Assembly: GCA_026545225.1 (NCBI GenBank)
Contig: CM048845.1
Coordinates: forward strand, 64,297,033 to 64,361,032
Origin: Cornus controversa
Taxonomy: Eukaryota; Streptophyta; Magnoliopsida; Cornales; Cornaceae
Length of the DNA stretch: 64,000 nt
Reading direction: 5' to 3'
Part shown: positions 10,824-40,143 of the stretch, in pieces
Position numbering within the stretch: the stretch's first letter is position 1
How the letters are laid out: the number at the start of each line of letters is the position of its first letter
The notes under the pieces: model-generated
What the model saw: the letters and a program-made list of their open reading frames with translations, nothing else
Database searches by the model: none
What the model was told of the DNA's origin: nothing
Made by a program: the position numbers and the translations under genes

Positions 10824-10828
10824 ACTCA

Positions 10829-11139
10829 TCAGGTGGTAGTATTCAATAACAAATCATCAAAAAAAGTTCCTTTCACAATCTATTAGCCCACATATTTATA
10901 AGTATCTATGAAAATCCTAATCAAATCCTACAACCAAAAATAAATCCCTAAAATACTAAATTACTGAAATATAAAAAATCAAGACATTACTAAAATAATA
11001 ATAATAATATTATTATTATTAATACTAATAATAAATAAACAATCAAAAATTTATAAGTCTATCTATCTTTTGCACATCTCAATAGTAAGTGCATTTCATG
11101 TGCACTTCAAGTTGTTGAGTCACGTCCGGTTCTCCATCA
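10829..11139 (-). repeat. Left (3') LTR of the PDS5-carrying element
   Basis: It matches 39739-40143 from AATAA-rich sequence through TTCAAGTT to CTCCATCA. It is shorter than its partner. The polypurine tract follows at 11140. Confidence 0.8.
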
Positions 11140-11596
11140 ATCCTCCCCGGTTGAAAAGAACTCTCCTCCAGAGAATAAATGCATATGTATTACTCTAAAG
11201 CATCATGGGAAAACTTAATTTTTTCAAATTCATCCTCTCCAAAAGGCTTGTAGTCAAAAACAAACTTGCACTTCCTTCTAGTATTCTTAGAACAAAAATA
11301 ACTCATATTATGCAGCAAACTACCAATAAATTAATTCATTGTCATCAGTGCAATTTTTCCATCTTCATTAACCATCAAAGGCACAACTCTCCCATTTACT
11401 TCAGCTTAAACAAGTATGTAGTCAACATGATTAATGTAATAGTTGTCAAGGGCAACTGTTGTCTAAAGAACACAATGACCAATTTCTTCATAAGACACCA
11501 TACATCTCATAAAAGTGTCAAGATCATGAGATGATTCGTTTGCTTCTTCCAACTCAATAGAGACGTGACTGCTTCCAAAATACTCATTTTCAAATG

Positions 11597-11823
11597 CATC
11601 TTAACAAATAGAAGTGACTACCTTTGCAAAATCAGTGAACAAAAGGTTCATAGATTGCACAACCTTCAAAATACATGGCTTAAGAATTATAGTACAGTTG
11701 TTCAATACCTTTTCTCCTAACTTGTGAGATTGGCGTAGAATAGTATGATTTCCCTTCTTAATACTAGTTAGAAAATGACGAAGTAGCTTCACCGAAACAT
11801 GGTCATTTTCCTCCAGTACTAGA
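11597..11823 (-). pseudogene. PDS5-like segment 3 (downstream of Copia insertion)
   Basis: The minus strand reads LVLEENDHVSVKLLRHFL at the Copia junction, then KLGEKVLNNC and AKVVTSIC. This follows the plant PDS5 HEAT-repeat region (family: LVLEESEDVS, RKLGEKV, KVVASIC). It continues directly from segment 2, the Copia element having entered between them. Beyond about 11597, toward the LTR, similarity fades and I cannot assign 11140-11596. PDS5 binds cohesin and helps hold sister chromatids together; this copy is a non-functional fragment. Confidence 0.8.
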
Positions 11824-12599
11824 TGTTGGATTTAAATTAATAATCTAACATGTAGAAATCAAGAATACAATAATTAATTAAATAGAGTAATTGGGCAATC
11901 GTACCTGATTGATGATATAACCTTAGAATACCTTTATGTTTCATGCAAGAGATCCTTAAAGAGCTCTGCATCCTCTCTGAGAGTTGTCATCCAATCGGGT
12001 TGAATAAGGGTTTTGAAACCCTTATATATAACAACCAGGGGGGGTGACTTCTTTACAAATAAACATACCCAAGTCTCTTTTCCTATCGTGAAAAATTGGA
12101 TATCAACGGCTAGGATTAAATCCCACCAAATAAAGTTGGTAAACCATAATACAACGGTGTAAATATTATATTGTCAATTATACCACAATTGACAAGTATA
12201 ACCCCAACCCATCTAGTAATGATAATCACATTGCAAACCAATTTTAGAAAACATAGTGCCACAAAATAATTTTTATTTATATTAAAAATTTCAACAATCT
12301 CCCACTTGGTCGATGTACTTTAAGTTTTATAAAAATGACATTATGGATTGCAATACTTTAGAAAAGTCGAGTGGCCACTCATTTTAATTTTTAGAAAAAC
12401 ACAATTATCAAAATAGGTGAATTGAAAATTTAAAACACTCTCTTCCATAGACTTTCTCAATAGTGGATCATGAATGCATAGACAAGTAATATATTAGTCT
12501 AAATAGTTCCATGGTCTCAAAATTGATTCCATCTAAGATTTGAGCAAATATAATGATTTTTAATACATTTTCATGAGATGTGCAAATTGCATGTGGTTT

Positions 12600-13150
12600 A
12601 AAGACACATCTCATTATCCGTCCTTCTTCATACCATCATAGTATGTCACCTGAATATATTACGACAAATCGCCAACCTCCTGTCCAGTGTGAGGGTTTAC
12701 CGATGTGGAGTCAATTTCATATCTAGCCCAAGCTATCCATAGGCTGTTTCATACCATCATGGTATGTCACCTGAACATGTTACGACAAACCGTCAACCTT
12801 TTGTCCAGTGTGAGAGTTTATTGATATGGAGTCAATCTCATATCTAGCCCAAGTTATCCTCATGAATTATGAAACGCTCCCACAAGAATTTTAATAATTA
12901 TGTTTGGATTTACTGATATGGTGTCAATTCCACATTTAGCCCAAACAATCTCATGGAGTATAATACCACTCCCTAGGCAAAACTAAATAATTATGTTTAG
13001 ATTTATCGATGTGGTGTCAATCCCACATCTAACCTAAATAATCTCACGGAGTGTAATACCACTCCCCAGGCAAATATGAATAATTATGTTTGGATTTATC
13101 AATGTGGTATCAATCTCACATCTAGTTTAAACAAATTTATGAGTGCAATA
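12600..13150. repeat. Tandem repeats in the 3' non-coding part of the Copia element
   Basis: A block with CATACCATCATRGTATGTCACCTGAA and GTCCAGTGTGAG occurs twice, about 120 bp apart. It is followed by three or four copies of an 80-100-bp unit containing TTATGTTTGGATTT, TGGTGTCAAT, and CTCATGGAGT or CTCACGGAGT. They lie between the RNase H region and the polypurine tract. Confidence 0.75.
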
Positions 13151-16100
13151 TCACTCTTAGACAAACATAATGACAGACACATAAATCATATATATCATAA
13201 TAATAATAATGATACATCATAACTTCATTTTGCATACAAATAACTGTCACCACAAGGTGTAAATAAACTGAAAAAAATTACTGTCACCATAAGGCGTAAA
13301 TAAGTTGAAAGCTAATAAATATAACATGATATAAAAGAAATATCATACATCATAACACAATGACTCTCGAACACCTATTCAGATCACGTGCTCTTTAAAT
13401 ACTTTCGAACGAAAACCTTTAATGAGAGAATCTATAATCATATTTTCTACTCTATATTGGGAACCTCAATAACATATTCCTTAACCTTTTCGTACAAGGA
13501 CATGTACTTTATGTCTATGTGCTTATTACACTTGGTCAACTTTTTATTTTAACATACCTTGTTAATACTTCATTGTCACAAAAAACCACCAAAGGCTTGT
13601 GGATATAGTCTTTCCAACCAAAAGACATGTTTGATTACTTCATAATAACATATTAACTATGTATATATAGTGGAATCTGTGATAATAGACTACTTAGAGC
13701 CTTTCCATAAACCGCTCCATGAGCTAACATAAAAATAAATTAAGAAGTAGACTTCCTACTACTTGAGCAACCTGCATAGTCAGCATCAGAATAACCCTTT
13801 ATCTCTAAACAGTTTGATTTCATATAGACCAACATGAACTCTTTGTTTTTATGGAGATACCTCAAAAAAAATTTCACTACCTTCCAATAAACAATGCGTA
13901 GATTTTGCTAAAATCAACTTCACTTCTCACAAAATCATTATTGGGACACTTTATTCTTACAATATATTCCCTTTAACACCTAGAACCTCACTCGATGCAC
14001 AATTTTTCATCTCAAAAGTTTTTAATATTTTATCAATACATGCCTTTTGAGAAAGTTCAATTTTTCCTGTAGTGCATGTATCACATGGATGTCATTACTA
14101 ACTAACAAAATATCATCAACATTTAGGACAAGGATAACAAATTAATTCCCACTAAACTTGAGGTATATGCATTAGACCACGACAATCTTTAGGTTGAGAT
14201 GTGTAAATCACTTCCTTAATGTTTCCATTGAGGAACATTATTTAGATATCTATCTAATGCAACTCAAGATCATAATGTGTGACAATGACAAAATGACTCT
14301 CAAAGAGTCATTTGATCAAACTAGAGATATTTTTTTAGAAAAATCAACACCTCTTATATCTATCATACACCTCCAAGTCCTATAAAATCTCCTAAGCTAA
14401 ACGGGCTTAGGAATTGGATTAAAAAATAAAAGAAGAGGTTGTGAAGGAATAACTAAATGAGTGGGAATAAGAGCTCTGATTGATACCACTAAAGAAAGTG
14501 AAATGAAATATGAAGTAAATGGAATGGGCACTAAAGATTGCTCCTCTGCTAAATAAAAACTACAAAGCTCTAGACTCCCACTGAATTCACACATCCTTAA
14601 TAAATTTTATAATGACATGTTTCAACAATCTTCATAAGTTTAGAGGGATAATAAAAATCATGAAAAAAAAACTCTCAAGATACCCAATGAAATAGCAAGT
14701 GATAGTGTAAGAATAAAGCTTCTTGATATTTAGATTGTATAACCTTACCTTTATAAGACATCTCTACATATGTCTAAGACTAGGTGTACGACCCGTCCAT
14801 AGCTCGAATGGTGTTTCAGGAACTGCTTTATATGGTACTCTATTAAGAATATAAATAGTTGTTTTAAGAGCTTCTCTCCCAAAAACTCTCAGGTAGTGAA
14901 GAACGACTCAAAATGTTGCGAACAACAACCACCTAAAAGGTATAGTTTCTTATTCTGTAACTTCATTATGCTCAAGAGAACTAGGAGTGGTGTACTATGA
15001 CATAATGCCCTGTTCCATGAGGTATGTATTGAAAATACCATGATTCACACCATCCTTATCCATTCTCCCATAATACTCACTACCTCAATCTGGTCTTAAA
15101 ACCTTAAATATTTCTACCCAATTATTTTTCAACTCTAACCTGATAAACTTTAAACACATCAAGTGCTTCAAACTGTTGATGGATTAAGGGCATATAAGCA
15201 TACCTTAAAAAACCATCAATGAAGGTACTGAAATACTTTTGACCACCACGACCAGTAATAGGGTGACCACAAATGTCGATATAAACCAAAAGACCATAAG
15301 ACTGACCAGCCTCAAAATTATGTTTCTTCTACATCTTTCCCTTGACACAATCAATGCATAAATCATAATCTAAAAAATTTAATAATCCATTAATCCCATC
15401 ATTAATGAAGCGTTCATGTCTCTTTCAAGAGACATGCCCCAATATCATGTCATAGCATAAATGAATCCCCTCTAACAAAAGCATGATTTTATCCAAAAGG
15501 TATAGAGTATATAGAAAAATAAGAGGCATGTATGATCACACCTGAATCAATCCTCATCTATGTTTAGGCATGTTTATAGAATATAGCTCAAATATTACCA
15601 TGACAATTTCACACTTAATTTATTTATTTTAACCAAGCCTTGTAACCATAACAAATTTCTTTTGATGTCCTTTCATTTTGTAGAACCAAAATTCATATTT
15701 TCTATGATCATGCATTTTCCTTTATTGTTCTGTTTTTAACTTTTTTGTCTGCCTAATTTCCTTTTTTGCTGCTTATTTTCTTTTAGAAAATATTCTTACT
15801 GCTATCATTTACGACAAGATGAGCTGACTCAATTTTAATGCCCTTGAATTGTTCTTCCTCAATCACACAAAGTGCTAATATTTGGTTAATATCTTATTTT
15901 TGTCACATGTGAATTATAATTCATCCTGAAATTTTTAAAAAACTTAAGCAGAGAATACATCACCATGTGAATTAATAACTCATCATCAAATGCGATTCTC
16001 TGCTCCCTCATATTATTAACTAGCTTACACATCTTATAGATGTGCTCCCTCACTGAACTATTGTCATCATATCTAGATATGGCTGACATAAGTTGTGTGA

Positions 16101-17238
16101 GTCAATAATAATAAATTTATTTTTTAGAGGCCCGTGAACTGCTTCTTGATTATATAAAAAACTCTTTGGCAGTATCAAATAAAAGAATACCACCCGGAAT
16201 AGTTTTGCTAATATATAGAAACATAAATTAACCTAATGGCTATGGTATTTCTTTTAGTGTACTTAAAATGCAACAATTCTACCTCAGAAGACTCTACAAT
16301 GGGCATAGGGAGTTTCTCCTTAATAAAACACAGACTCATAGTCTAAGAAACCCAACACAAACTCAATACTCATTTTTTAAGCAATATAATTTGAACCATC
16401 TAGTGGTTTAATCTCTATAAACTATCTCTGAATTGCGGAAGAATCTTTAACCTTAATACATGTTATATTAAATAACACCACATAAACAATATATAAAATA
16501 ATATGTTACAACTTTAGGGATTATCACTTTAATTTGTACTTAGAGTTTTAAGCTGAATTTGTTATGATGTTTTACTATGTGCAAAACCTTCCACCCTGAG
16601 GGAACAAGTAAGATGTCATCTAAAAATCACATTTGGACAGAATTTTAAATACATTTACCTCCCAAATATGCAATTAAATTGCACATAAACCTAGTTGATT
16701 ATGCTTGAATTATATAGATATACATTGGTGAATTTATTAAACATGCTGAAAAAATAATTATTTCACAAAGTAATTAAATCAAGTCTCAACATGTAAATAT
16801 AAATTCACCACCATTGTACTGGCCTCCTATTGAAATGCAATCCCAAACAGTCCCACTGGAACTTCGACAACAAATATGGTGGCAAGCATATGCCACAGGT
16901 TTATCGGTTTTAAAAAAAGGGACAAACTTCACACTGTTACTAATATTTACCCATGTTTGGAGTAAAAAATACTATGAAAATAACATGCATGTTGTGCAAC
17001 TCACAACCTGATGAAACTTGGTTTGCAAAGAAACCAAAAACTCATATACATATACATTCTTTAATTGTACAAGTCTCACCAATAACCGCCACTTGGCAAT
17101 CAAACAAGTTTGGCCCAAATCAATTGTAAAACTAGTTCCCTGATCCACCACTTGTAAACAAAATGCAGTAGTCTGTCCATTTGAATTTTGAAAACCAATG
17201 ACCAATATATAGAAAACAAACATCATGTGTGAAGCAAC

Positions 17239-17264
17239 TTATATATATATATATATATATATAT
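17239..17264. repeat. (TA)n microsatellite inside the Copia element
   Basis: Alternating TA, about 26 bp. Confidence 0.9.
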
Positions 17265-17963
17265 AATACTTTCAGTACATATCTCAAAGGAACAACAAAC
17301 TTTACATGAAATAAATTATAAAAGGCAATCAGTTCAACACAGTGGAAATAATGAAAAAAAAAACACTTCATCTGTTTTTGATTCGGTTCCAAAATGTCTT
17401 TCATTCAAAAAAGATCACTGATTATACGAAATCAAAATGGACAAACAGTGCAAAAATCTCTTACACAAAAAATAATTCTTTCATCTTGATTTCTACAATA
17501 AAATCCTAGTCTCGCTCTAATACCAATTGTTGGATTTAAATTAATAATCTAACATGTAGAAATCAAGAATACAATAATTAATTAAAGAGGCTAATTGGGC
17601 AATTGTACCTGATTGATGATATAACTTTAGAGTACCTTTATGTTTCCTGTAAGAGATCCTTAGAGAGCTCTACTCCCCTTTTTGAGAGTTGTATTTCTAT
17701 TGGGACGACTTCTCTACAGATAAACATACCTAAGTCTTCCTTCCTATCATGAAAACTTAGATATCAATGGTTAGGATTAAATCTCACCAAAAAAAGTTGG
17801 AAACCGCAATCCAACGGTGTAAATATTATACTGTTAATTAGACCACAACTGGCAAGTATAACCCCAACCCATCAAGTAACGATAATCACATTGCAGACCA
17901 ATTTTAGAAAACAAAATACATAGGACCACAAAATAATTTTTATTTATATTAAAAATTCCAACA

Positions 17964-18385
17964 CTAAAGTCATAATTTTCTCCATAAATTTAAAGATATT
18001 GTCAGGATGATAATCTTTTATATATGTTAAAAGGTACTGAAACATCTGGACAACCAACTCTTCACATTCCAAATCTAGCATTGTCAAACATGACTTGATA
18101 TTTTCAAATGTATCAAGAATTTTGACCCACCTATTATAGGAAAGATTAAATCTATCAGATAGATTTTCAAAGGATGACACAATCACCTGTAATACTTTCT
18201 TCATCTCATCGTCATTATAGGGAAGACATGGTGCTATAATCCTTGTTATCTCACTAAGGCATGAAGTAAATGCAATTTTAACATCACATTTTGAACGCTT
18301 TAAAAATCCTTTATTATTACAGAAAGTGCAGCTTGTATTGAAACGTATGGGTCTTGTTATACCTTTGAAAGAAAGTGATCAACTT
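17964..18385 (-). pseudogene. PDS5-like segment 2 (between Copia and hAT insertions)
   Basis: The minus strand gives a 420-bp stretch whose best part reads PYNDDEMKKVLQVIVSSFENL, then KILDTFENIKSCLTMLDLECEEL, then MFQYLLTYIKDYHP and MEKIMTLVLE. Plant PDS5 proteins have the same order (PYDDDQMKEVFQLIVSSFE, MLDLECD, MFQHFL, HPENVF, METIMTLVLEE). Upstream of this, AALSV and a cysteine/lysine-rich piece match the preceding PDS5 region, with the frame disturbed. There is no intron within the matched stretch, although plant PDS5 genes are cut into many short exons. That suggests capture through RNA. Confidence 0.85.
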
Positions 18386-18744
18386 TAGGGATGGCAATAG
18401 GGGCGGATGTGGGTGCACCCGCCCTCATTTAATTTTCCTAAACCCAAACCCACCCAAAACTGATTACAATTTCTCCCGCCCACCCTGTCCCCGCCCTATT
18501 TAATTTTCTCCCACCCCTCCCCCACCTATACCTCCCCGTTTAACTCCCACTCAACTCTTTCATAAATTTTTTTTTTTAAAAAGCAAGTGTTAAATCATCA
18601 ATCAATTAACAAGAAAAAGTGGGGAAAATATAAAAATAAAATCAAGATTATTCAGTTTTAAATTTTCTACCACTCAGTAATTGAAAAAGTTCACACATTT
18701 GCTGTTAATGTAATTAATTGGCATCACTAGGTGATTTTTTTTTT

Positions 18745-21057
18745 TGTAAAGATCGGAATTTTTTTATTTTTTCAAAAAAGGATTATAAATCAATTTTCAT
18801 ATGTTTTAAACATAAATTACATATGCGGGAAATACTTTTGGGGTTCAGGGAAGTTTCCGAGCTATTTGGCTCAATTTGAGATTTTTGGGTTGGCGGGGCT
18901 TGAGACACGAGTTGAGTGGGCCCGGAGAAACTGAAAAAAAAATTAAAAAATTTATTTTTGGTTTTGGGCTAGTTAAGGCATTAGAAGAGATGTAGAATGA
19001 ATTTTAGACTCGTAGCCGCTTCTGGAATAGAAAATGAAGGTCGAAAAGGTACATTAAGTAACCTAGGGACATTTTGGTCATTGTGCACTCTAGTTATTAT
19101 AAATATCAAGGAGTTGGGATTTTTTCATTTCTCACAGACCATAAGGGCCAACTACTCTCGTCTCCCTTTCTCTTCATCTCTTCTTCCTTCTTTCTTCATT
19201 TCAAAGCCCTAAAGGTGGGATTTGAAAGGTGTCAGTCAAGAACGGATTGTTCTGCACGGTGAGGGTAATGTTTTGACTCGAACAAAGTATGATTTTGGTG
19301 AATTTAAAGCTTGAGGATTTTTAGGATTTTGCTAGAAAATTTTGTAAACTTGAGGTAGAAGTGTTCTCTCATTCCTAACTTTGATTCCTTAGATTTCTTT
19401 GTGGTTTATGGTTATATTAGCATGTTTAAGAGAAGTAAAAAGTGAGTCTTTGAGTTCTCTTCTTGTATATGCATACTAGATGTGTTCGTATAAAATATAT
19501 GATATATGTGATGTATATTGGTGTTATACATACTAAATTTGAGTTTTGTGTGGTCTTCATATGAAATATATGATGCATGTGATGTATGTGGGTGTTATAC
19601 ATGATAAATGATAGTTTTGGCATGTTAATATTTGCCTAAGTGTGTGTTACACTTGTTGTTTGAACATACATGTTGTATATATTGGCATGAGAGTGCATAA
19701 AGTTTGTTAGGATCACCTATTGACCATGAACATGGTGTGTGGGCCTGTAGGGCACCATAAAAGTGATGATGTGCATATTTTAGCATAGATATAATTAGCT
19801 TATGATGCACGTGGAATGGAATAGATTAATTCTTGATAAGGTTGAATCGATATGTTGTAATTGTACATGTGGTACAGTGGAATTGTGTCCTCAATTGACA
19901 GATTTCAATTGGCTGTGACTCACTTTTGTTTCCACTAATTAACAGATTTTATTTGGTGTTAACTCATATTTGATTTTTTCCAATTGACAGATTTCAATTG
20001 GTGACAAATCGTTTTGGTGTATGAAATTGACAACTTCATCTTGATATACTCCCAAAAATTAGTAGAGTTTAAACATTTGACTTGGTGGTTCAATTTATGT
20101 TGAAGAGTTTAATTTGAGATTGTTGTGGTGAATGTTGTATTACATATGGTGGTTTAAGCATTGTTGAATGTTGAAACTTGTTTATTTATATTATCAATAA
20201 CATGAGCATTGTGAGTATGTCATGTAGTTGATAGGGATGCCATGATTGCATTTTATATACGTCGCGTCGAGTCGGTGCTTAAGTTGGTTTGTGCATTTCT
20301 ACTGAGTCCGTGATCGCTCACCCCTTTCCCCAAACCACTTTTACAGATAAGACACCAGCTATGGATGAGGCTTAGATATAGTAAGGTTGGAGCACTCAGT
20401 GACATTTTAGTCTATGTATAATTATGCTTGTATGTGTCATGTTTGACGCTTAGAAAGGAAGTGCAATGGGACATGAAAATGTGTATGTTATGGATGGATA
20501 ACTAGTACTTTTGGTTTTCATGTATCTATGTCAGATGAGAGTCTGTTTTTAGTGATGTACTTATGATGTTGATGTCGTATACACATGCCATGTATGATAT
20601 TAGAGGTGTATGTAATTATTGAAAATGTATGTATGTTAAAAGATAAGTCTTGGCCATGATATCGATCAAGAAAGAAATTAAAAATTTATGTTAAAAAGAA
20701 TTATGATTGACTGTAATCCTAATTATGATAGATCGTATTATTACGATCAATCGTAGTATAAAATATGATAGATCGTGATTTTTTTTTAGGTTTTAGAGCC
20801 AAAAATTGAATAATTTGGTCCCCAAACTGGTGGGTTACGATACTTCGTGCGATACATTAGCGATCAATTGTTAATTGTTAATACGATTGATTGTTATGCC
20901 ATTTACGATTGATCGTAGTTATTATTCACAGCAGAATCAGAATTTTGCCCAAACTTCAAACAGACATAACTCATTCGTTTTAAACTATAATCAAGTGTGG
21001 TTTTTTTTTTATTTTTTAAATTGAGTATTTTTAAATCATATATCCAATGGAATAAGT
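18745..21057 (+). mobile_element. Tekay/Del-like Ty3/gypsy LTR (left part, solo or partial element)
   Basis: It starts TGTAAAGATCGGAATTTTT, a start seen in plant Tekay LTRs. A TATA box (TTATAAATAT, about 19096) is followed by a pyrimidine-rich leader (CTCGTCTCCCTTTCTC). Further on is a GAGTCCGTGATCGCTCACCCC segment characteristic of this group (near 20305). The sequence is cut at 21057 by the fold-back Athila element and may resume at 35456. The far end was not fixed, and no gag or pol was found. Confidence 0.6.
20690..20930. repeat. Clustered short inverted motif GATYGATCGTA in the LTR
   Basis: At least eight near-copies of ATGATAGATCGT or its complement ACGATCAATCGT occur in 240 bp, several as head-to-head pairs. 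They could be protein-binding palindromes within LTR sequence or drift of a short tandem repeat. Confidence 0.6.
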
Positions 21058-21827
21058 TGACGAGTGTAGATTAATGGATGTTTGTCGTTGCTTTTCTACA
21101 CTTCGTACAAAAAATAATAAAACCTGCAAAAACTTTACTAAAAACTGTATAGTAGTAAGCAGGGTCGAACCACTCTCAAGTGAGAATCAATAACAAGTCT
21201 AAACTTCAAAACCTAATTCTCTTGAGATGAAAAATGAATATTTAAAAAAATAAAATTCTGATTTTTTTATTTAATAATAAAAACTAATATTAAATGTCTT
21301 AGATCAAATGATGAAAAAAAAAATCTCAAGGAAAGAGAATTCACCACCATGGATCCATATAAATAAAGTTTTTTTTTATATTCTTATTTAGTTTTTCCTC
21401 CAATAACCAATACACTTCACCAATCCAATTAGAACTTGGAAAGATGAAGGAAAATATGGAATAAAAAAAATGACTTGATTATATATGAGAGAGACATTCT
21501 TTACTTAATCTGATGCACATTGGCTAGGTAAACAGAGGTAGGCATTGTTCGAATTACCATTATTTGGCAAACACGAAAAATCCTTCCTCTAATTTTAGAA
21601 AATAAAATCCAGAATAGAAGAGTAGAAGAATGCTCTTGGAAGAAAAAAGTAGACAAAAAAATAAAACAACTTACCTATACTTCAGCCATGGTGGCTTCAT
21701 CACTTCCTTGAGAAGGATGTTTACGCTTGCATATTAATAGAAAACAAATAAATAGAAATGAAACTACTGCTCATCATTGAATCAATAAAATAAATACAAT
21801 ATTTTTTTCTATAATTTCTCTACAATT
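21058..21827 (-). repeat. Left outer arm of inverted repeat (pairs with 22266-23033)
   Basis: The 770 bp are a near-perfect reverse complement of 22266-23033. Landmarks are TTCTCTTGAGATG, GGATCCAT and CATTGGCTAGGTAAAC on this strand, and their complements in the other arm. Confidence 0.95.
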
Positions 21828-22265
21828 TTGTTTGTGCATTTTTTTTCTTCCTTTTTAGATTAAGAAAACATAGTTTTTTTAGGTTGATAACTTTAGCATG
21901 TGAACTCTAGGATAGAATAACTTAGAAATCTCCCAAGGGTCACACTTTCTTCAATATAAGAAGAATTGTAGGAGAGATGGTATTCTGTGCAATCTACTTC
22001 ACAAGAGGTCTCAAGTTCAAAACTTTGCCAAATATTTTATACACGGCCACGTCTGCAGTCCAGAATTGAAATTAAAGATATGGAAATCAAATTTTAGATA
22101 TTCAAATTCAAAATTTTGTATTTTGAATTTTTTTTTTTTTTTTTGAATTTTGAATTTGGTATTTCAAATTTGTATTTTGAATTTTGTATTTTAAATTTTT
22201 CCCACCTAAACCATTCCCCTCTAACTCTATAAATAGGGGGTCTTAGGAGATGGTGAAGGGGTTAG

Positions 22266-23033: not shown

Positions 23034-23055
23034 AATGGCGCCGTTGCCGAATTAA
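23034..23055 (+). promoter_or_regulatory. tRNA-Asp-type primer-binding site
   Basis: TGGCGCCGTTGCCGA starts at 23036, two bases after the LTR-like CTCGTCA end. This is the primer site used by Athila-group elements. Confidence 0.85.
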
Positions 23056-27723: not shown

Positions 27724-27733
27724 AGGCGTTGAA

Positions 27734-30700: not shown

Positions 30701-32420
30701 TGGAAAAATTGCCGAAAAAAGGAGGTTGAAGGTTACAAAAGAATTGTGCACGCCAAGTGTTCAATTTAATTCTTCAACCACACTTTTTCTACTTCTATGG
30801 CACCAAAGAGAGCAAGTCACCGAGGTGCTTCAAGTTCACGTAATCCTCGCCGAGCGAGGCATGATCCGACCACAGGTTCTTCACGATCTCGCCGAGAAGG
30901 TATTCAAGAGAGATGGCATCCAAGGGCATTGAACTTTGAAACCACGTTTGACATAGCCGAACTTTATGGTATGTTTCCCGAGACACGATGGGGGATTTCC
31001 GACATCCGTCGTCGTCGGTCGGCATCCATTTTTGTTCCACTCTCATCTACTATTTACCCGAGGCTTGTCAAGGTATTTTATCAGAACTTAATGCCGACAC
31101 CTGATGAGCGGGATGTGCTTACTTCTTCCGTAGATGGAACAATAGTTCGAGTGGACATGTCATCCATTGCCATTGCCATGGGTTGTCCTCATGAGTGACC
31201 AGATGATTTATCTCATATCTATACTCCTCTACCCGACAAGTTATCAGTGGGCAATGTGGTTGCACGTTTGTGTGCCAACCAATTTTTTGGGCCGAAAAGG
31301 AATGCAGCTTCTAAGTCTTCAATGCCAAATCATTTATGGTTCCTTGACGCTGTTCTACTCAAGAATGTATGTCCAATTGGACATAAAACCGAAAGACGTC
31401 AAGAGTTCCTCAGAGCCTTATATGCCATACATTTTGGGCATTGGCTGTCATTTCCACAGAATGTCTGGGGCCAGATGGAGAAGTTCTATTCCAAGGTTGT
31501 AGCCAAGGCACCAGACAGTGCAAGTGACTGGGAGTTTTCATTCCTTACTATTATTCACCAGTTGCTTGTGGCACAGGGGTATGCAATCCATGAGGATGAG
31601 CTTGCCTCTCCACGTGATCATCATTATGGCACGCATGACTGGAATTTGAGCCGATCACATATGCATCAGAGAGTCATAGCGGCGCCTGGTGAGGTATCTC
31701 GTTTGGCCCAGGGAGAAGAGAATATAGATATACCACAACCGGTGGAAGATCCAGAGGAGATGGAGGCTGAGGAAGAGGAGGTGCATGCACAGGCTGGTGG
31801 CCATGATTCAATATTTAGAGGGGCAGATTGCTGGGTTAACAGCCCAGTTTGGCACCCTACAGACAGAGGTATCCACACAGTTTGGTGCAATGAGAACTGA
31901 GATGGCAGATCACTTTCGTGACACTCGCCAAGAGCAACTAGAGATGAGGAGGATGATGCGTGCACTGATGCGTCAAGCAAACTTGGATCCGGATGCTCAG
32001 TCACCACCACATCCTTGACAGGAAGGTAACCATCTTTTGTATTTTATTTTATTCTTAATTTTTATTTTTCTTTTTAATTTTATTTTTCTTTCTGTAGTTA
32101 GATTTTTATTATAAAAAAAAAAAAAAATTTAATTTTTTTTAGGATTTTTCTCTTTCATATTTATTTTCACCCATACTATTTCACTTGATCTTTGGGGTAT
32201 AGTGGTTTGGTTTGTTTTGACAGGTTCTAACATCCAAATTTGGGGGAGTGCTTTCATTGCCTTCATGCTCGTGGTGTACTCTATTTTCTTTCCACTACTC
32301 TGGATTTCTGGTAACATCGTTCTTACTCTTCTCTATGCTTTAATTGGGTGTCCATTGAGGACAATGTACAGTTTAAGTTTGGGGGTGAGGCGATGCCTAT
32401 TTTTATGCTTTATTGGGTGT
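27734..32420 (+). mobile_element. Second Athila-type element, partial, inside the first
   Basis: A candidate LTR (27734-29240, TGTTACGCA to ACGAATCA) is followed by the primer site TGGCGCCGTTGCCGGGG (29246-29262). Next is a gag with DPYKHLDDFIEVC, MRLFPFSLKDKAKYWFNSL and FLKKYFPIGKTNQFRRAI (29386-30180). Then comes an extra coding region and two polypurine-like tracts (TTTGGGGGAG near 32240, TTTGGGGGTG near 32380). No pol and no second LTR were recognised. The right border is placed where the host element's integrase words resume (about 32420). It is incomplete and inactive. Confidence 0.75.
30797..31950 (+). other. Athila-associated extra ORF region (putative plant transposon protein domain)
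   Basis: The frames read FETTFDIAELYGMFPETRWG, then CANQFFGPKRN, PNHLWFLDAVLLKN, GHKTERRQEFLRALYAIHFGHWL and a glutamate-rich tail. This matches my memory of the domain annotated in plants as 'putative plant transposon protein' (Transposase_32), often found in the env position downstream of pol in Athila elements. Its role is unknown. The region is broken. Confidence 0.75.
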
Positions 32421-33239
32421 CCATGGGTAGAAGCATTAGCCACTAAGACAGCCGACCATAGAATTGTGGTGAATTTTTTGAAAGACTTAATTTTGCCTAG
32501 ATTTGGTGTACCTCGAGCCATAATTAGTGATAATGGTTCCTATTTTTGCAACAAAGTCTTTGCAAGTTTAATGTCTAAATATGAGATCACCCACAAAGTG
32601 GCCCTATCTTATCACCCACAAACCAATGGTCAGGCTGAGGTATCCAATAGGGAGATCAAACATATCTTAGAAAAAATGGTTAACCCCACAAGGAAGGACT
32701 GGAGTCTCCGCCTCCAAGATGCTTTGTGGGCATATCGTACTGCTTATAAGACTCCTATAGGAATGTCTCCATATCGCTTAGTCCATGGCAAAGCATGTCA
32801 CTTACCTGTCGAACTTGAACACCGTGCTTATTGGGCTATCAAGGCCATGAATTTTAACTATGATAAAGTCGGAGAGCGTAGGTCACTTCAACTCGATGAG
32901 TTGGAGGAAATCAGAAATGATGCCTACGAGAGTTCGAAGATTTATAAAGCTAAGACCAAATTGGAACATGACAAACAAATTCTGAGAAAAGATTTCTCCC
33001 CAGGCCAGAAGGTTCTTCTGTATAACTCTCGTCTTGAATTGTTTCCTGGGAAGTTGAGGTCACGATGGTCTGGTCCATACTATGTCCACCAAGTAGCTAG
33101 TCATGGTGCTATTGAGGTTCAAGATCCTAAAAATGGAAAGTTATTCAAAGTTAATGCTCAACGTATAAAGCCTTTTCTTGAGTTGGAGGCTCGTGAAATT
33201 GAAAATGTTTTCCTTGTCGATCCAATCTATCTCGATTGA
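32400..33239 (+). other. Integrase region of the fold-back Athila element
   Basis: [19 protein letters not shown] is followed by [17 protein letters not shown] (core aspartate), [17 protein letters not shown] (core glutamate context), [19 protein letters not shown], and a C-terminal [29 protein letters not shown] segment. It continues the pol of the element whose reverse transcriptase ends near 27723. Confidence 0.9.
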
Positions 33240-34145
33240 TCTTTTTGGGGTACTATCTCTTTTGCGTCTGGCTGAAGACGTTAAACTTAGCGCTCTTGGG
33301 AGGCAACCCTGCCGGTTGATTTTAGAGTTTTGTAACTGTTTAGTTGTGTTGCTACTTAGTTTAGGATTTTTTGTAAACTCTATTTGGATATGTTTATATT
33401 CTATTTGGGGTACGGTCTTTGATTAATATGGTTCTAAATCATTTAGTCTATATTATTATGCATTGCATATTTGTAGGGATTGTACTTCTACCACACCAGA
33501 ACAATTAAGGTAATTTGTTCCAATATTTTTCTATCTGTCTTCAGCGATACATTGTTACTATACTTTTAACACTAGGGACAGTGTTGTATTTTGTTTGGGG
33601 ATGGGGTAGATTTATCAAAATGCATTTTTTTTTTAAATCTTTTGATCCAAAATAGAGTCATTTTTAAAAAAAAAAAAAAAAATTTTTGGCAGTATAGTTC
33701 CTTTATAATGATGATATTGGATTAACTTATGATCCGTTTCATGAAATCCAAAGAGATGTTAATGTTTTGATCTAAATTGAACTTGTTATTAGGGTAATAT
33801 AATGATAGACATTATTGCATCACAGGCATTTAAAAGCAGAAATATTTTTTGCACAAAAGTCGAACTTTGCAATTCGAATTGAAAAGTGAGTAATCTCCTG
33901 ATAATCTGGAAGATCTAATAGTAGAGACTTAGACCGTGTGAGCTTTCGTGCCTTTCACTTTTGTAGAGAATTTTTATGCTAACTCCAAGTCACAAGATGA
34001 CTCAATTTTCTTGGATACCGTATAAAAAATCGTTGGTAGTCTCATTATCTTTCATTTTGGTTGATCATTGAGAATGAAATCACTTCGAGTTAAGAGAAAC
34101 ATAGGCCAAAAAAAAAAAAAACCATCATATTTTTTTTTCAATGAA

Positions 34146-34178
<33 letters not shown>

Positions 34179-35045
34179 AAGAAGAAAAAGAAAAAAAGAA
34201 ATGAAGAAGACAAGTTTTCCCTTTGAGATATTTTGAAGACTCATCACTTCCAAAAACATTCACCTACAGCCCAATACTAATCACCACCTGTAAGATTTAT
34301 GGAAAGATATGATAGTGGGTAATAAGTAAGCAGGCGCTATGGTGGGTAACTCGACATTCTCCCAAAAGTGATCAACATTCCTATCATGAGACTTTTCTAT
34401 TTATATGTATCGGTTTTTCATATTAGTATGTGAGCTTGCTTTTACTTTGGAAACAAAGTTTCTACTCACATACAACTGAGAGAAACAGTTAGCCAAATCT
34501 CCGAAAGTTGTTCTTTTAGAGAGATATTTACCTGTGAGATTTGAAGTCAAAACGTCTTTTTCTTCTAGTGACTTGGGAATTACATTACTTGAATTTGAGG
34601 ATGGCTTTTTGTCGACTTCACACACATTCACTCTGCTTCTAGGTTACTTGTGGATGATTTTTCCTTGATTTTTATTGTTATAACACCCTAGTAGCTTGTT
34701 GTATATGAGGAACTTATCAATTTCATTTCTTATTTTTCATGTTTCATGGATATACAGGAGATTCTCTGAACAATAGGGGAAATTACTGCCTTAAAACAAC
34801 TCTTCTTTGTAATAGTTAGAAAGTTTGTGGGTACCTTCACTGCAAACCCTCACGAGACTATAGCTCGTCCACTAGGGGTAACCTAGGGGTTTAAGGCCTT
34901 ATTGCATATGGTAAATGCAATCGAGAACAGCCTACGAAAGTGGCACATCTTTAGTTAGGAGTTAAATAAAAGTAACAGTTTTGTACACTAATTTCTTTTG
35001 CTTGTATTTGCTAGAGGACTAGCAAAAGCTCGTTTGGGGGTAATT
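33240..35045 (+). other. 3' non-coding part of the fold-back Athila element, with A-rich tract
   Basis: No gene is seen. It contains TTTGGGGATGGGG near 33590, an extremely A-rich segment at 34105-34200, and the final polypurine tract before 35046. Several short open frames here have no family resemblance. Confidence 0.7.
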
Positions 35046-35450
35046 TGATAAGTGCACAAAACTTGCTATTTTATATTCTAAAATAAGTTTTTAATTCATC
35101 TTTTATTTTATTTAAAGGTTCTTATCTTTGCATTTTATGTTTTATAGGGGTTGATTTCCAAATAAGAAGAAAAGCAGCAAAAGATGACTAAAAAGGATAT
35201 ATATAGCCAAAGATGAACATAAGAAGAATTGTAGGAGAGATGGTATTCTGTGCAATCTACTTCACAAGAGGTCTCAAGTTCATCTTTGGCTATATATATC
35301 ATTTTTAGCCCTCTTTTGCTGTTTTTCTTCTTATTTGGAAATCAACATCTATAAAACATAAAATGCAAAGATAAGAACCTTTAAATAAAATAAAAGATGA
35401 ATTAAAAACTTATTTTAGGATATAAAATAGCAAGTTTTGTGCACTTATCA
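35046..35450. repeat. Right fold-back end: inverted arms around a 58-bp spacer
   Basis: 35046-35219 and 35278-35450 are near-perfect reverse complements, starting TGATAAGTGCAC and ending GTGCACTTATCA. The spacer with GAATTGTAGGAGAGATGG also occurs between the left arms at about 21957-22018. Confidence 0.95.
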
Positions 35451-35455
35451 TAAGT

Positions 35456-36034
35456 CTCAGTTTGAGATTGAACTGGTACGAAGAGTTAGATGTTTGAACT
35501 TGAGAGGCCCATGAGTGTGAGCCAGTTAATCTTTCACTATTCACCCCATTTCCCTCGCTCTTAAGTGGGTGTTGGAAAGCAAGGCTTGACAATTTTAGAA
35601 CATAGCAACAGATTACATGAAGCTCAAAATCCCTCATTTTTTTCTTTTCTTGCATTTCTAGTGAACCAAACAAAGGATACAAAAAAGTAATAGGAAATCA
35701 AATGAGCTTCTTTACCAATAATTTTTAACTTTTTAAGGGAAAAGAAAAGAAAAGAAACAAAAGACATAATGAGAATAAATAAAACCTCAAACCTCTTAAA
35801 ACCAAATCAACCAAGGTGAAGAAGAAAACATAAGTTCATGAGATTAGATATGTCAAATAGAGTTCATGAATCAAAGAAGAAGAATAGAGAGAGTGCGCTA
35901 ATTGGAGCGCGTGGTGGATGGTAGGTTCGTAAGATTGTCTTGCCGTCTTGCAATTCTTGGTTGGGTCTCTAACGGCTAAAGAGTGAGTAGTGAGAATGTG
36001 AGATTAAGATTTAGGGCTAGGGTTTCATTACATG

Positions 36035-36068
<34 letters not shown>

Positions 36069-36229
36069 CTTATGTATATAAGGGTATGTTAGTAATTTTG
36101 CTATCTAAATAGGGGCGGTACGACCTTCCCCGTCCCGAACCCGTGTGGGTTTTTTTCACTAAAACCCATCCCCGCCCAAATCTCATAAACGAGCCCTCAA
36201 AACCGAGATGGGGAAAATTTTTATCCCTA
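35456..36229. other. Right part of the Tekay-like LTR and right end of the hAT element
   Basis: No gene is seen. The first 150 bp may finish the LTR interrupted at 21057. From about 36100 the GGGGCGG/CCCCGTCCCG words belong to the hAT end. A (TA)n tract lies at 36041-36064. Confidence 0.5.
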
Positions 36230-36331
36230 ATTAGCCTTGCTAAATATCTAAAGCAGCTCATTGATTGAAGTTGAAGGTTGAATAAGCCTATTTTTAATTT
36301 CCAAAATTAGTTGTTCTATCTGCCTTTGCAT
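36230..36331 (-). pseudogene. PDS5-like segment 1 (N-terminus, next to hAT end)
   Basis: From an ATG at 36331 (minus) the 34 codons read with IEQLILEIKNRLIQPSTSINELL, against EEQLxEAGNKLLxPPSSxDELL at the start of plant PDS5A-like proteins. The stretch ends at the hAT insertion, and segment 2 resumes on the other side (KVDHFL). One in-frame TAG occurs in this host-derived piece, near the hAT junction. The similarity is short but lies in the right order, spacing and strand relative to segments 2 and 3. Confidence 0.7.
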
Positions 36332-38292
36332 ATTTATTTTTGTTTCCCTTTCATCTTCACACCAATGATGATCATCCTTAATAGGAATTTTAAGTGATGG
36401 ATAGATTAGTGTGTATTCGACAACGTTAGTCTTTAGCTTAACATGAAGCCACTAGGGAGAGAGACAAATATTGCTAATCATCCTTGCAATATAATCAAGA
36501 ACTAATTTTCTTTTCACTCTGGTTCACTGGTTGTGTTCTGTACTATGGACATCATAGATGAACCTTATGTGGATGAAGTTTAGCAGCATCAGCTGGTCAA
36601 TAGATAATCTGGGCTAGGTATAGGTTTCTAAGAAAATGAACTAAATTGGCCTAGCAATGTGGAATAAATGGGTCATGGGTTGTTTGGGCCGAACTGATGG
36701 TAAAGTTTTGCTCTTTAGTCTGGGCTAAGTATAGACTTGGGTCAAATTTAATCAAACAAAGGGTGGGTCGGCTGATCTTGGGTTTACTTAATAAAGGTAT
36801 TTGGCTAGGCTTAAATTAAATAGGTGGTGGGATTATGTTAGTTGCCTTTGTGAAGGTCTAAGTAAAAATAAAAGACTAGATCGGCTAGGAATAAAATAAG
36901 TTCTGGGTAGGGGTGCAACTTGGGTTGGGCAACCCGAGCCTAGCTCGATTTTTTATCAGCTTGGGCAACTATTTTTACAATTAGGGTTGAGATTGAGTTA
37001 AAAAAACCTTAACCCAAACTTAATTAAGTTTGGGCTTAGGTTGAGGTGCCAACAACCTAAGCCCAACCCGAACCCAAATTGTAATATTATTTTTATGCAT
37101 ATTTTTTTATTTTAAATATATTATATATAATATTCAAATTACGATAACCTTTTTCTTTTCAACTTCCTTTATTTAAATCTTAATTTATTGTATGTTAACA
37201 CTTTGGATAATTAATTTCCTAAAAAAATATTTGTAATTTTTTAGAAATATGCATTAAGTTCTTAATTTTTTGTGTGTTTAGGAGTAATCTAATGTAAAAC
37301 TTATTAAATATCACTTTAAATTTTCAACATGGAGATTGGTGATATAGATAATTGGAATTAACCCGACTTTCTAACCCAAAATCTCAACCCGAGTTGCAAA
37401 CCTGAGTTTAAAAATTTAAGGATGGGTTAGGCGAGGGTTGGAAGTAGGGTTAGAGTTGAGTTAGGGTTGAACATTTCATATGTAGGGTTAAGCCTGAGTT
37501 GTACCTCTAACTTGCCCAACTTGCCCGAGTTACAGCCCTAGTTCTGGGTACTAACATTTTAATGGGCTGATTTCAAGACTAGTCTTAAACTCATAACCAA
37601 GCAGGGTTCTGGGTTTTTAATCAGGGTTGTTGCTGTTTTCTTTCGGGACAAGGTTGGGTTCAAAAGGTTTTGGCCTCAAATAGTTTTGGGCCTGTGTTTA
37701 GAGGTTTAGGAGATCTGGACTCAATTGATAATTTGAAAATGTTGGGTCAAAGTATTGTGTTGGTCCATATGAGATTACGATGGTTTTGAGAGATAGGTCA
37801 AAATAGATTAAGTATGGGATTCTATGGATAAGAAATTTGGGCTAGGCTCAGTTTGGTGTAAATTATATTTTTTAAACAGATTCGGGTTGAACCAGTTGGT
37901 GGGTGGGTTAGTTTTGGGTTATCAAACACCCAATGGATTGCATTTCCCAAATCATTCTCTATAGAGGATTGGCTCTAAGACCACCTCGCGATGGCGATAA
38001 CAAACTTTTTGATGACCAAATTCAAACAACAACAATTGTCAACGAGGCGATGAGATCCCGGCGACAGAGACTTGACTTTGTGACGGTTATGGAAGACTCA
38101 GATGATGATGAGGCCTCCTTCTGTTATTCTTCCCTTTCTTTCTATTTTTCTTTCTATTGATTGGATCCTGAATTGGGTTTGATATGGGGTGTCAGTTTCG
38201 ATCGATTATTGGTGAGATATGATTGCAGTGATGGGTTTGAATCTTTGATAATGGTTTTGGGTTGTTCTATTGTGGTGATGATGAGTGGCAAC
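36332..38292 (-). other. 5' interior of the PDS5-carrying element (no assigned gene)
   Basis: Apart from a hAT MITE (36908-37540), this is the leader between the primer site and the PDS5 piece. A 228-bp open frame on the plus strand (37933-38160) and its complement look coding-like in composition (RSRRQRLDF, SDDDEAS), but I cannot place either in a family. Confidence 0.5.
36908..37540. mobile_element. hAT MITE, 633 bp, with exact 8-bp duplication
   Basis: The termini are TAGGGGTGCAACTTGGG and its imperfect inverse GTTACAGCCCTA. The duplication GTTCTGGG is exact at 36900-36907 and 37541-37548. The interior is AT-rich between two GGGTTGGG-type flanks. No transposase. Confidence 0.92.
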
Positions 38293-39586
38293 TGATGAGT
38301 GCCAAATATTTTACATTCAATCCCTCATAATTGTATATTTTAATCTCTTAGTAATGCTTCTTTTATTCTTTTAATATTGAAATATGTTTTATTTGATTTT
38401 CATGATTTTGTCGGTAATTTCTTTCAAATTAATACAAATTAGACTTTAATTGAAGAAGTTTATTGAAGAGAGTTGGGTTCCACATATTAAGCAAATCAAT
38501 TTGAAGATCTAAAGCTAAAAAGGCCCAGAAAAGGTCCAAATGATTTAGAAAAGGTCCAAAAGGGTCAGAAGGTTCAAAAGGAAGTTAAAAGAATCAGGGA
38601 AGGGTGACGGGTCACTCTTCCACCCAACAAACACCTTAAAACCTCTCTCTCTCTTTATTTGGGATTTAAACTTCATATCTCTCAATTTGGTTTTCTTGGA
38701 GCAATTTTGGGCAATTTTGGGTACTTTTGGAGGAAGAGAAAGCCATGAAAAATGAAGGAAACCTCTTGAGGATGCATCTCCAATCATCTATGAAAGGCTT
38801 GACACCTCTTCTAAGGATGTTGCAACATTCTTTCTCTCTCTTCTATTGATCCATTTGTATTGAAATTGAAAATTTTGCATTCAAGTTGAATTGCATGATT
38901 AGATCTAGTAATTTATAGTTGTACTTGAATTATTGTGCTCAATTCTACAAATATAATCTCAATTGAATGTTAGTCTTCTATTAGATGCAATTAATTATGG
39001 TTCTTCTTCATTTTCTAGTTGTTATTGTAGTTCAATTGGGAGAAAATCATGCAATTAGGGTTTGAATTGAACATTCTAATTGGGGGTTTGATAATTTATG
39101 CCAATGAGAGATGATTTGTGTTGCAATTTAGATTAGCTTAGTGTTAATTAGTGTAAGTAGACAAGTCATGCCCTTTAAAGATGAGTTACACTTAGCTTAA
39201 TTGGAATATATGCTTCTAATTTCATTGTTTGAGCTTGTAGACATTCAATGATGTGTCCTTGAATTGAAATTCTCCAATTTTAATGTTAATTGGCCAATAG
39301 ACCCAATAATGAGGAGATTGTGGTGAAGCAATATCCCTATAACCATTTCTCATTCAAATTCACTACTTTAGTTCATTTGTCTTTCTATTTTTAGTTCATT
39401 TTAATTCTAAACAATATCAAAACCTTATCACTCAAATCAATCTCGAATTAATTTAGAATTAGTACTTAAATCAATCAATTTTCCCAATCCTTGAGGACGA
39501 TAACCTGTTCTAATAACTTTATACTATAAGGATCCGTCCTATTGTGGAACGTGGATTTTAAATTGAACATAAAATTCTAATGATCA
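38293..39586 (+). mobile_element. Solo LTR, Athila-like, 1294 bp
   Basis: It runs from TGATGAGTGCC to AATGATCA. The flanks GCAAC (38288-38292) and GCGAC (39587-39591) fit a 5-bp duplication with one change. The layout (CTCTTAGTAAT near the start, a GAGGACGATA block near the end) resembles the LTR at 27734-29240 without being the same family copy. Confidence 0.75.
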
Positions 39587-39738
39587 GCGACGGTTAGGGC
39601 TCTTGTGATGGGTTTTGATTAATGAACAGTAACGTGGGAATCACTATGAACAGTGAAAAAAATTCTTGCTCTCTTTGCTCAAAACTTCTCCTTTTATTCT
39701 AAATAAACTTGATTATGTTGCTCTGATACCAAAACTAA

Positions 39739-40143
39739 TGCAGAATGGGTGGGAGTGTTTCGAAACCAAAATTGGTTGAGAATTAGAGAAAGAATCAAAG
39801 AGGAAAAAAAGAGAGAAGAAGATTAGGAGAGGAGGAGAAGAAGAAATAGGGGGAAGAAGTCTGTAATTTCAATGTATTCAATAATCAATCATAAAAAAAA
39901 GTTCCTTTCACAATCTAGCTATCAACCCACATATTTATAAGTATTAGGAAAACCCTAATCAAATCCTACTACCAAAAATAATGTCCTAAAATACTAAATT
40001 TACTAAAATATCCTAAATTAAGGCATTACTAAAATAATAATAATAATAATAAATCATAATTATATCTATCTTTTCCATGTCTCTAGTAATTGGTGCATGT
40101 CATGCGTACTTCAAGTTATCGGGCCATGTCCAGTTCTCCATCA
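39739..40143 (-). repeat. Right (5') LTR of the PDS5-carrying element
   Basis: TGCAGAATGGG to CTCCATCA, matching 10829-11139. The primer-site complement is immediately to its left. Confidence 0.85.

Follow-up and report, generated by a model that had tools for sequence, protein, structure and literature searches.

A long terminal repeat retroelement family in Cornus controversa carries an intron-free PDS5 piece in a reading frame that may encode a silencing decoy

We describe a family of long terminal repeat (LTR) retroelements in Cornus controversa that carries a piece of the host chromatin gene PDS5 in sense orientation. The founding copy lies in a stretch of 64,000 nt of contig CM048845.1 (assembly GCA_026545225.1, positions 64,297,033 to 64,361,032, forward strand), which we call the window and to which five-digit coordinates refer. 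In the reading frame of this family, an intron-free N-terminal piece of PDS5C/PDS5D, likely taken from spliced RNA, appears to be joined to a degenerate integrase tail, and the product is a putative decoy against host silencing; judging from the sequences, we put the probability of this reading at about 0.4. Rather unlikely, to our mind, is a fuller scenario in which the LTR lineage would have captured the N-termini of PDS5C and PDS5D on two occasions, would swap the pieces between its subfamilies and would use the PDS5-integrase product as a putative decoy against RNA-directed DNA methylation.

A Multi-Copy Family with a Common Layout

The 772-Mb host genome was searched with two of the three PDS5 segments recognised in the window (Table 1). 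Segment 3 gave 41 match rows that correspond to 40 places, the window included (best 40 of 63 candidates scored), and segment 2 gave 40 match rows (best 40 of 69 candidates scored). We fetched 20 copies from the segment-3 list, termed type 1 (L009–L028), and five from the segment-2 list, termed type 2 (L033–L037); the window copy belongs to the latter, divergent subfamily. These siblings have the LTR as well as the PDS5 piece in common, and at separate places in the genome they repeat the order LTR - X - PDS5 - Y - LTR, where X is the start of the reading frame and Y a linker. An LTR pair was found in 15 of the 20 type-1 copies (two partial), and in five of the 20 (L010, L011, L013, L022 and L023) the paired repeats are 99.75–100% identical. 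Exact 5-bp target duplications are readable in eight type-1 copies, and in eight (LTR pair known in 15) the exact primer binding site motif lies no more than 40 nt from the 5′ LTR. The PDS5-carrying family is multi-copy and, by its LTRs, recently active.

The window copy is an old, broken LTR element on the minus strand (10829–40143), which carries its PDS5 piece in sense orientation and sits inside a gypsy reverse transcriptase gene. Both outer flanks belong to one gypsy pol on the minus strand, whose protease and reverse transcriptase break off at the 5′ end of the element and whose reverse transcriptase resumes at the 3′ end. Window and siblings have the features of LTR retrotransposons, i.e., paired terminal repeats, TG...CA ends, a 5-bp duplication, a primer binding site and a polypurine tract. 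When 10839–11140 is aligned with 39874–40144, 231 of 310 columns are identical and 47 are gap columns, which amounts to 87.8% identity at ungapped sites; the corresponding divergence (K = 0.133) translates into roughly 5–9.5 million years at the plant substitution rates generally quoted. The 5′ LTR (40143–39739) is followed by TTAGTTT and then by TGGTATCAGAGC (by eye), presumably the complement of the 3′ end of initiator tRNA-Met. The two copies of the target duplication (TGTGT and TGAGT) agree in four of five bases.

The initial annotation, made from the letters of the window, had proposed an LTR element without gag or pol, in which three consecutive parts of PDS5, parted only by later insertions, lie within one LTR pair and in the same sense as the primer site and the polypurine tract. 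Most of this is borne out. The end repeats align as LTRs, both motifs are readable on the minus strand, and the PDS5 match ends within the LTRs, the flanks being the gypsy pol gene. Segment 2 is identified as PDS5 by Pfam (PF20168, profile positions 37–152) and by human PDS5B (5hdt, at 2.2e-10). Segments 1 (36331–36230) and 3 (11823–11597) were each scanned together with the adjoining in-frame sequence and lack a Pfam match; they are assigned via the reading frame of sibling L010, to which they align at residues 6–76 (43% identity, E = 1e-12) and 226–350 (58.5%, E = 2e-46), respectively. In the siblings the segments are contiguous at both joins: segments 1 and 2 adjoin in type-2 L033, L036 and L037 and lie within 3 bases of each other in L035 (L034 has no segment-1 match), while segments 2 and 3 abut to the base in 18 of the 20 type-1 copies (39 unaligned bases in L016, 3 in L028) and are at most 10 bases apart in type-2 L034–L037 (L033 has no segment-3 match). 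Because the segments adjoin in siblings, the 17.8-kb and 6.1-kb interruptions in the window are later insertions; the 6.1-kb one is absent from 24 of the 25 fetched siblings, L033 being uninformative since it lacks segment 3. The target duplication ascribed to each of them is readable but degenerate, with five of eight bases agreeing around the 17.8-kb insert (AGGCTAAT/AAGTTGAT) and four of five around the 6.1-kb insert (both by eye). The window copy, where 36332–39738 has no Pfam match at E ≤ 0.01 in three sense frames, answers to the description “without gag or pol”; the siblings, which retain an integrase-derived tail, do not.

Three of the type-1 copies (L012, L015 and L024; C1, 35.5–37.8 Mb) have a common 5′ flank (AAATTCGT), and L015 and L024 also share the duplication TTCGT; given the common flank and duplication, these look like one insertion spread by segmental duplication. 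The 2.3-kb leader between 5′ LTR and open reading frame (ORF) shows fast turnover: of its 2,250 bases, 357–552 align to L010 in 10 of 13 older copies (57 in L019, 716 in L018 and 1,322 in L027), and LTR and ORF stay alike.

Absence of Host Introns from the Captured Stretch

Exon joins of the host gene PDS5D (L038, C1 near 85.03 Mb) lie at Cornus PDS5D residues ~41, 109, 170, 212 and 269. Three of the introns, those following residues 109, 170 and 212, are seen in full, with GT-AG borders; at 41 we see the acceptor only, exon 1 not having been located. In the host PDS5C gene (L039, C2 near 60.05 Mb) introns occur at matching positions, exon 1 included. The element runs uninterrupted across all four host intron positions that fall within the captured stretch. 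Since host PDS5C and PDS5D are interrupted at these four positions and the element is not, the PDS5 piece inside the LTR element was very likely captured from spliced RNA, to go by this comparison of exon borders. The initial annotation had preferred the same route, on the model of maize Bs1, and it remains the simplest reading: as in Bs1, the host gene piece lies between LTRs, in sense and with its introns absent. A processed pseudogene would be a solitary retrocopy with a poly-A tail and no LTRs, whereas window and sibling copies are bounded by LTRs. The captured mRNA would have been reverse-transcribed via RNA template switching, a capture route that we take from a review (PMC13317346, section 4), and mobilisation would depend on the gag-pol of another element.

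The Fusion Reading Frame of Young Copies

One open frame of 714 codons (694 amino acids from the first ATG) is present in the five youngest copies and runs into the 3′ LTR; a sixth such frame occurs at C2:95676893. It consists, in order, of ~44 residues of unknown origin (X), the N-terminal HEAT part of PDS5, the linker, the C-terminal half of a degenerate gypsy integrase and an SH3-like end. The PDS5 domain PF20168 is matched by residues 74–278 (E = 1.5e-43). The tail has no Pfam match at E ≤ 10, and we identify it as integrase-derived because it matches two gypsy frames located in sibling flanks: residues 373–446 are 38% identical to a frame in the L015 flank (E = 2e-11) and residues 415–574 are 22% identical to a frame in the L017 flank (E = 1e-6), both E values applying to a small set of sequences. 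By Pfam both flank frames are SH3_Tf2-1, and the one at L015 also matches rve, one bit under the cut-off. By eye, the tail keeps two of the three catalytic acidic residues, the first aspartate and the N-terminal half of the integrase being gone. The integrase part is missing in the window, L033 and L037 and kept in L034–L036 of the same subfamily. No Pfam domain was detected in three sense frames of the 2.3-kb leader of L010, so that of the genes of an autonomous element (gag, protease, reverse transcriptase, RNase H and integrase) only the integrase remnant was found in the L010 leader, the ORF and window 36332–39738.

Among the protein matches listed for the full frame (120 of 198 scored), none is named a transposon protein and all contain the host PDS5 domain; a Populus protein (P0022) aligns to 74% of the frame with 34% identity. 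Segment 3 together with Y (stops as X, X-padded) gave 252 protein candidates, none at E ≤ 1.

Purifying Selection on the Frame

Compared with L010, the ratio of nonsynonymous to synonymous divergence (dN/dS) is 0.38–0.52 in 13 of 15 older copies, and 0.69 and 0.67 in L014 and L021, respectively. A neutral simulation with the substitution spectrum of the leader returned a dN/dS of 0.70, with a 2.5% bound of 0.47 at 7.5% divergence and of 0.52 at 12%. After this simulation we dropped raw dN/dS as proof of selection and compared private with shared changes instead.

Private changes were taken as decay after insertion and changes present in at least four copies as evolution of the source copies. 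This comparison was made on type 1 only, with 19 of the 20 copies (L014 was too divergent) and then with 17, the flank-sharing L012 and L015 being left out. Changes that alter the amino acid (stops included) relate to silent ones as 288:82 among private and as 53:41 among shared changes (odds ratio 2.7, p = 4e-5), and a second run on these 19 copies, in which the filling rule differed slightly, yielded 290:80 and 53:41. Without L012 and L015, the odds ratio is 3.4 (p = 1e-6); it is 3.3 for transitions only (p = 2e-5) and 3.2 for transversions only (p = 0.047). Each part of the frame shows the constraint, the PDS5 part with an odds ratio of 3.6 (p = 0.005) and the rest with one of 2.4 (p = 0.006). 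Stops make up 26 of 370 private changes and 1 of 94 shared ones (p = 0.015); the 15 copies without a fully open frame contain 1 to 12 of them each. The lower share of amino acid changes among shared than among private changes indicates that the fusion frame was likely under purifying selection, kept for its product.

Pieces of Two PDS5 Paralogs

The plant PDS5C and PDS5D genes, of which the two in the host have introns and whose proteins end in a Tudor region where the element has neither, are the probable source of the captured piece: 68 of 77 protein matches of the PDS5 part are 48–58% identical, with Cornus florida PDS5 homolog D at 57% (best E value) and a Cephalotus protein at 58%. These top matches (57–58%) are of the C/D type, and trees put both element types among C/D hosts. 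Only two matches exceed 1,300 amino acids, a canonical-looking protein of Wolffia (1433 amino acids, with PF12717; 37%) and one of Senna (1363 amino acids; 53%); the candidates were 825–2625 amino acids long and no further canonical PDS5A/B is among the matches, so the comparison of C/D with canonical proteins is one-sided.

For phylogeny, the PDS5 part was split at host residue 148 into PDS5a and PDS5b. The type-1 PDS5a groups with the host's own PDS5D and Cornus PDS5D (95/75) in the D clade (98/100), and the type-2 PDS5a, window included, falls in the C clade (95/98); a single clade of both is rejected by the approximately unbiased (AU) test (p = 0.013). The PDS5b of both types goes with PDS5D, placement in the C clade being rejected (p = 0.001) and placement in the D clade not (p = 0.22), in a tree where L034 has a very long branch and L033 lies outside the tested group. 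Silent-site differences (pS) point the same way: for PDS5a of four type-2 copies and the window they are 0.53–0.62 to own PDS5C against 0.74–0.80 to own PDS5D, and for three type-1 copies 0.61–0.67 to PDS5D against 0.70–0.73 to PDS5C. Segment 2 of the window is 58% identical to own PDS5C (pS 0.60) and 50% to own PDS5D (pS 0.78). By bit score, PDS5a and PDS5b are D-D in all 20 type-1 copies and C-D in L034–L037 and the window, and both parts are PDS5C in L033.

Between types, synonymous divergence (dS) is ~1.6–3.2 in PDS5a and 0.11–0.49 in the linker, the integrase part and the tail. In PDS5b it is 0.11–0.37 for L035, L036, L037 and the window, 1.36 for L034 (out-of-frame match, dN 0.93) and 1.64 for the PDS5C-type L033; for X, four copies show 0.38–0.47, the window 0.88 and L033 1.39. 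As PDS5a is far apart but linker, integrase part and tail are close, pieces of two paralogs appear to have entered one family and to have been exchanged between subfamilies. The captured piece accordingly derives from PDS5D in type 1 and is a PDS5C-PDS5D mosaic in the window and four of five type-2 copies; the exchange may have come about by recombination between co-packaged RNAs.

A Putative Decoy against Silencing

We take RDM15 (AT4G31880) of Arabidopsis to be PDS5C, with which PMC11519323 is in line. According to PMC8184781, small interfering RNA (siRNA) and methylation depend on RDM15 at a subset of loci under RNA-directed DNA methylation; the protein binds NRPE3B, a subunit of Pol V, and combines a protein-binding ARM repeat at its N-terminus with a Tudor domain at its C-terminus that reads H3K4me1. 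Loss of PDS5C/PDS5E de-represses transposable elements near genes, as stated in a meeting report (PMC12859917) that cites Takei 2024. We favour a decoy because the element keeps the ARM/HEAT binding part and lacks the Tudor chromatin reader. The fusion protein could occupy partners of PDS5C/PDS5E (NRPE3B, AGO1), which would blunt RNA-directed DNA methylation on the element.

The APDAP motif of PDS5 proteins serves in the binding of WAPL and cohesin partners. It is altered in all nine element rows that cover it (L010, L020, L021, L022, L024, L033, L034, L037 and window segment 2), to APNEP in type 1 and to AP(N/D/C)(L/I)P in type 2, and the host rows show APDAP or APEAP in 25 of 28 cases. With the motif changed, ordinary cohesin-partner binding by the element product is doubtful.

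Several points weigh against the proposed decoy and the selection and paralog claims on which it draws. Raw dN/dS overstates selection, because the neutral value is 0.70, and the observed 0.38–0.52 reflects selection only in part. Changes present in two or three copies are intermediate (94:37) and indistinct from private ones (p = 0.10). The alignable leader diverges by 5–7% in eight of 13 copies, which is not above codon positions 1 and 2, so that the leader makes a poor neutral yardstick; what aligns of it is conserved. Constraint extends to the integrase-derived tail, where a pure decoy would not need it. The paralog claim rests on 148 columns with long branches, on an AU p of 0.013 and on groups named after the identities had been seen. 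The silencing role is reported for PDS5C/PDS5E in Arabidopsis, and in the literature we found nothing on PDS5D and no map of the RDM15 surface that binds NRPE3B. Gene fragments captured by DNA elements, moreover, are usually non-functional pseudogenes (PMC13317346, section 4).

This last point also speaks for taking the PDS5 piece as a passenger that was picked up from spliced RNA by chance and whose product has no function; so do the stops in each of the 15 old copies and a neutral dN/dS that is 0.70 by this method, not 1. A passenger, however, would not be expected to show shared and private changes that differ strongly in both parts of the frame, or stops concentrated among the private changes; nor would its 714-codon frame be open in the youngest copies of a family that is millions of years old (from the window LTRs, at the rates quoted above), or the same place be filled by PDS5 pieces of two paralogs. 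We regard this explanation as largely refuted and as decidedly improbable. The main rival of the decoy is that the fusion aids replication of the element in another way, either by guiding integration as a chromatin tether or by serving, like gag, in packaging or import. The constraint on the frame behind the PDS5 part, the nature of PDS5 proteins as chromatin and cohesin factors and the altered APDAP motif suit it; a tail devoid of the integrase N-terminal half, first catalytic aspartate included (by eye), suits it less, as does the absence from the captured piece of the Tudor reader, through which PDS5C binds chromatin. We consider such a role a real possibility, though not one we would adopt.

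Two other explanations concern the origin of the piece. From the window alone, with its three widely spaced and decayed segments, one might have imagined a gene remnant or ordinary processed pseudogene of PDS5 that lies by chance between two unrelated LTRs; the siblings rule this out and leave it next to no probability, as they repeat the same layout at separate places, with young LTR pairs, target duplications, primer binding site and polypurine tract. A single capture of one PDS5 gene, with the PDS5C-like look of the window type due to convergent or fast evolution, would fit the long branches (0.5 and 0.65 changes per column) and the fact that only 17 columns separate C from D hosts cleanly, type-2 rows showing D residues at 2–3 of the 8–11 that they cover in the first 148 columns. 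Yet the silent sites of both types agree with the amino acids in choosing between own PDS5C and PDS5D, the dS contrast between PDS5a and the linker, integrase part and tail is steep, the AU test rejects a common clade, and the PDS5b part of L033 has no PDS5D match. We therefore judge a single capture unlikely and keep to pieces of two paralogs in one family, of which the product is tentatively read as a decoy.

Relation to Known Systems

Host gene segments in maize Bs1 are without introns. VANDALs, whose VANC proteins offer another comparison, are DNA transposons, whereas the family described here consists of LTR elements with 5-bp duplications. Bs1 resembles it as an LTR element with host gene segments that form a chimeric gene (PMC13317346, section 4). 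The Bs1 segments stem from three metabolic gene sources (ATPase, xylan endohydrolase and glucanase); here, there is one family of chromatin and silencing factors with apparently two paralogs, in a multi-copy element with an integrase remnant at the end of the frame and shared changes likely under purifying selection. VANDAL/VANC of Arabidopsis is alike in that a plant transposable element family codes for an additional anti-silencing protein, which opposes RNA-directed DNA methylation (PMC10398659), a role that is putative in our case. VANCs are sequence-specific proteins with a demonstrated effect; the protein considered here derives from a cofactor of host silencing, is encoded in an LTR element and has an effect that is proposed from sequence. 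The Ulp1-carrying Kaonashi (KIU) Mutator-like elements have likewise kept a captured host domain as a gene in a plant transposable element family (PMC13317346, section 4), but they are DNA elements with another host gene. Retand LTR elements share an extra coding region before the 3′ LTR; most retain the usual protein domains, and 10 of 63 clusters are without at least one (PMC11963269, in the text of which “pds5” and “cohesi” have 0 matches). No account of a PDS5-carrying plant LTR element turned up among the matches listed in the open-licence literature.

Gene-carrying LTR elements (Bs1) and anti-silencing proteins of transposable elements (VANC) are known; new is a piece of a silencing factor, seemingly from two paralogs and under selection. 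Gene capture by LTR elements is known, but the captured pieces are mostly regarded as debris, and here a captured host chromatin and silencing piece is multi-copy, recently active, probably under purifying selection and apparently from two paralogs. If the product interferes with PDS5C/PDS5E-dependent methylation, the family would be to retroelements what VANC is to VANDALs and would directly exemplify a transposon that uses a factor of host silencing against the host, with a weapon built from the silencing machinery itself. The decoy claim is testable, as the target pathway has Arabidopsis mutants and the prediction is specific (loss of siRNA and methylation at family copies).

Features of the Window and Additional Observations

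Table 1. Features of the PDS5-carrying element in the window and of its insertion site (strand “.”, none assigned).
Feature	Position	Strand	Basis and remarks
Gypsy pol of the insertion site: protease and start of reverse transcriptase, broken by the element	40149..40738	-	RVP_2, E = 2.9e-12; reverse transcriptase letters by eye
Target duplication copy TGTGT (5′ side)	40144..40148	-	Sequence
Element 5′ LTR	39739..40143	-	405 bp, TGATGG...TGCA; pairs with 10839-11140; ends by eye; 70-80% to sibling LTRs
Primer binding site TGGTATCAGAGC	39720..39731	-	Read from sequence
ORF start: ~44 residues of unknown origin (X), then PDS5 segment 1	36251..36472	-	tblastn with L010 ORF residues 6-76, 43% identity, E = 1.3e-12
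PDS5 segment 1 (part of host exon 1, to exon 1/2 border)	36230..36331	-	Sibling frame alignment
Later 17.8-kb insertion, hAT-like ends (TAGGGAT...CCCTA), nested retroelements	18386..36229	.	Absent from L033, L036, L037 and L035; class by eye
PDS5 segment 2 (PDS5a part, apparently PDS5C-derived)	17964..18385	-	Pfam PF20168, E = 1.5e-26; own-paralog identities; tree
Later LTR-element insertion (6.1 kb), target repeat TTTAG/TCTAG	11824..17963	.	LTRs 11811-12296 and 17515-17963, 79% alike
PDS5 segment 3 (PDS5b part, apparently PDS5D-derived)	11597..11823	-	81-85% to 39 other places; bits PDS5D 74.3 vs PDS5C 64.7
Linker Y and shortened ORF 3′ end; integrase-derived part of siblings missing	11141..11596	-	Sibling comparison
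Polypurine tract AACCGGGGAGGAT	11140..11152	-	Read from sequence; 3′ LTR begins behind, at 11139
3′ LTR	10829..11139	-	~125 bp deleted near end
Target duplication copy TGAGT (3′ side)	10824..10828	-	Sequence
Same gypsy reverse transcriptase, continued	10300..10823	-	RVT_1 profile 68-201, E = 8.5e-23

The position of the 17.8-kb insert corresponds to the exon 1/2 border of the host gene, which looks like a coincidence because siblings are contiguous there. Large inverted repeats at 21057–23034 (98% over 772 columns) and 35046–35450 (90% over 407) are fold-back insertions or insertions like miniature inverted-repeat transposable elements, nested in the 17.8-kb insert. In the nested retroelement region, Rfam snoR71 is matched at 29924–30029 on the minus strand (48.3 bits, E = 9.7e-7), partly overlapping a gag-like ORF on the opposite strand (29386–29970, plus, by eye), i.e., a small nucleolar RNA inside a transposon.

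Outside the window, six further places match the middle of PDS5C (~301–599 of P0089, 46–56% identity; two also 704–742), at C6:14.29–14.50 Mb, C9:13.38–13.65 Mb and C1:68450905, with clusters on two chromosomes. They apparently represent a second multi-copy PDS5C-derived sequence, separate from the LTR family.

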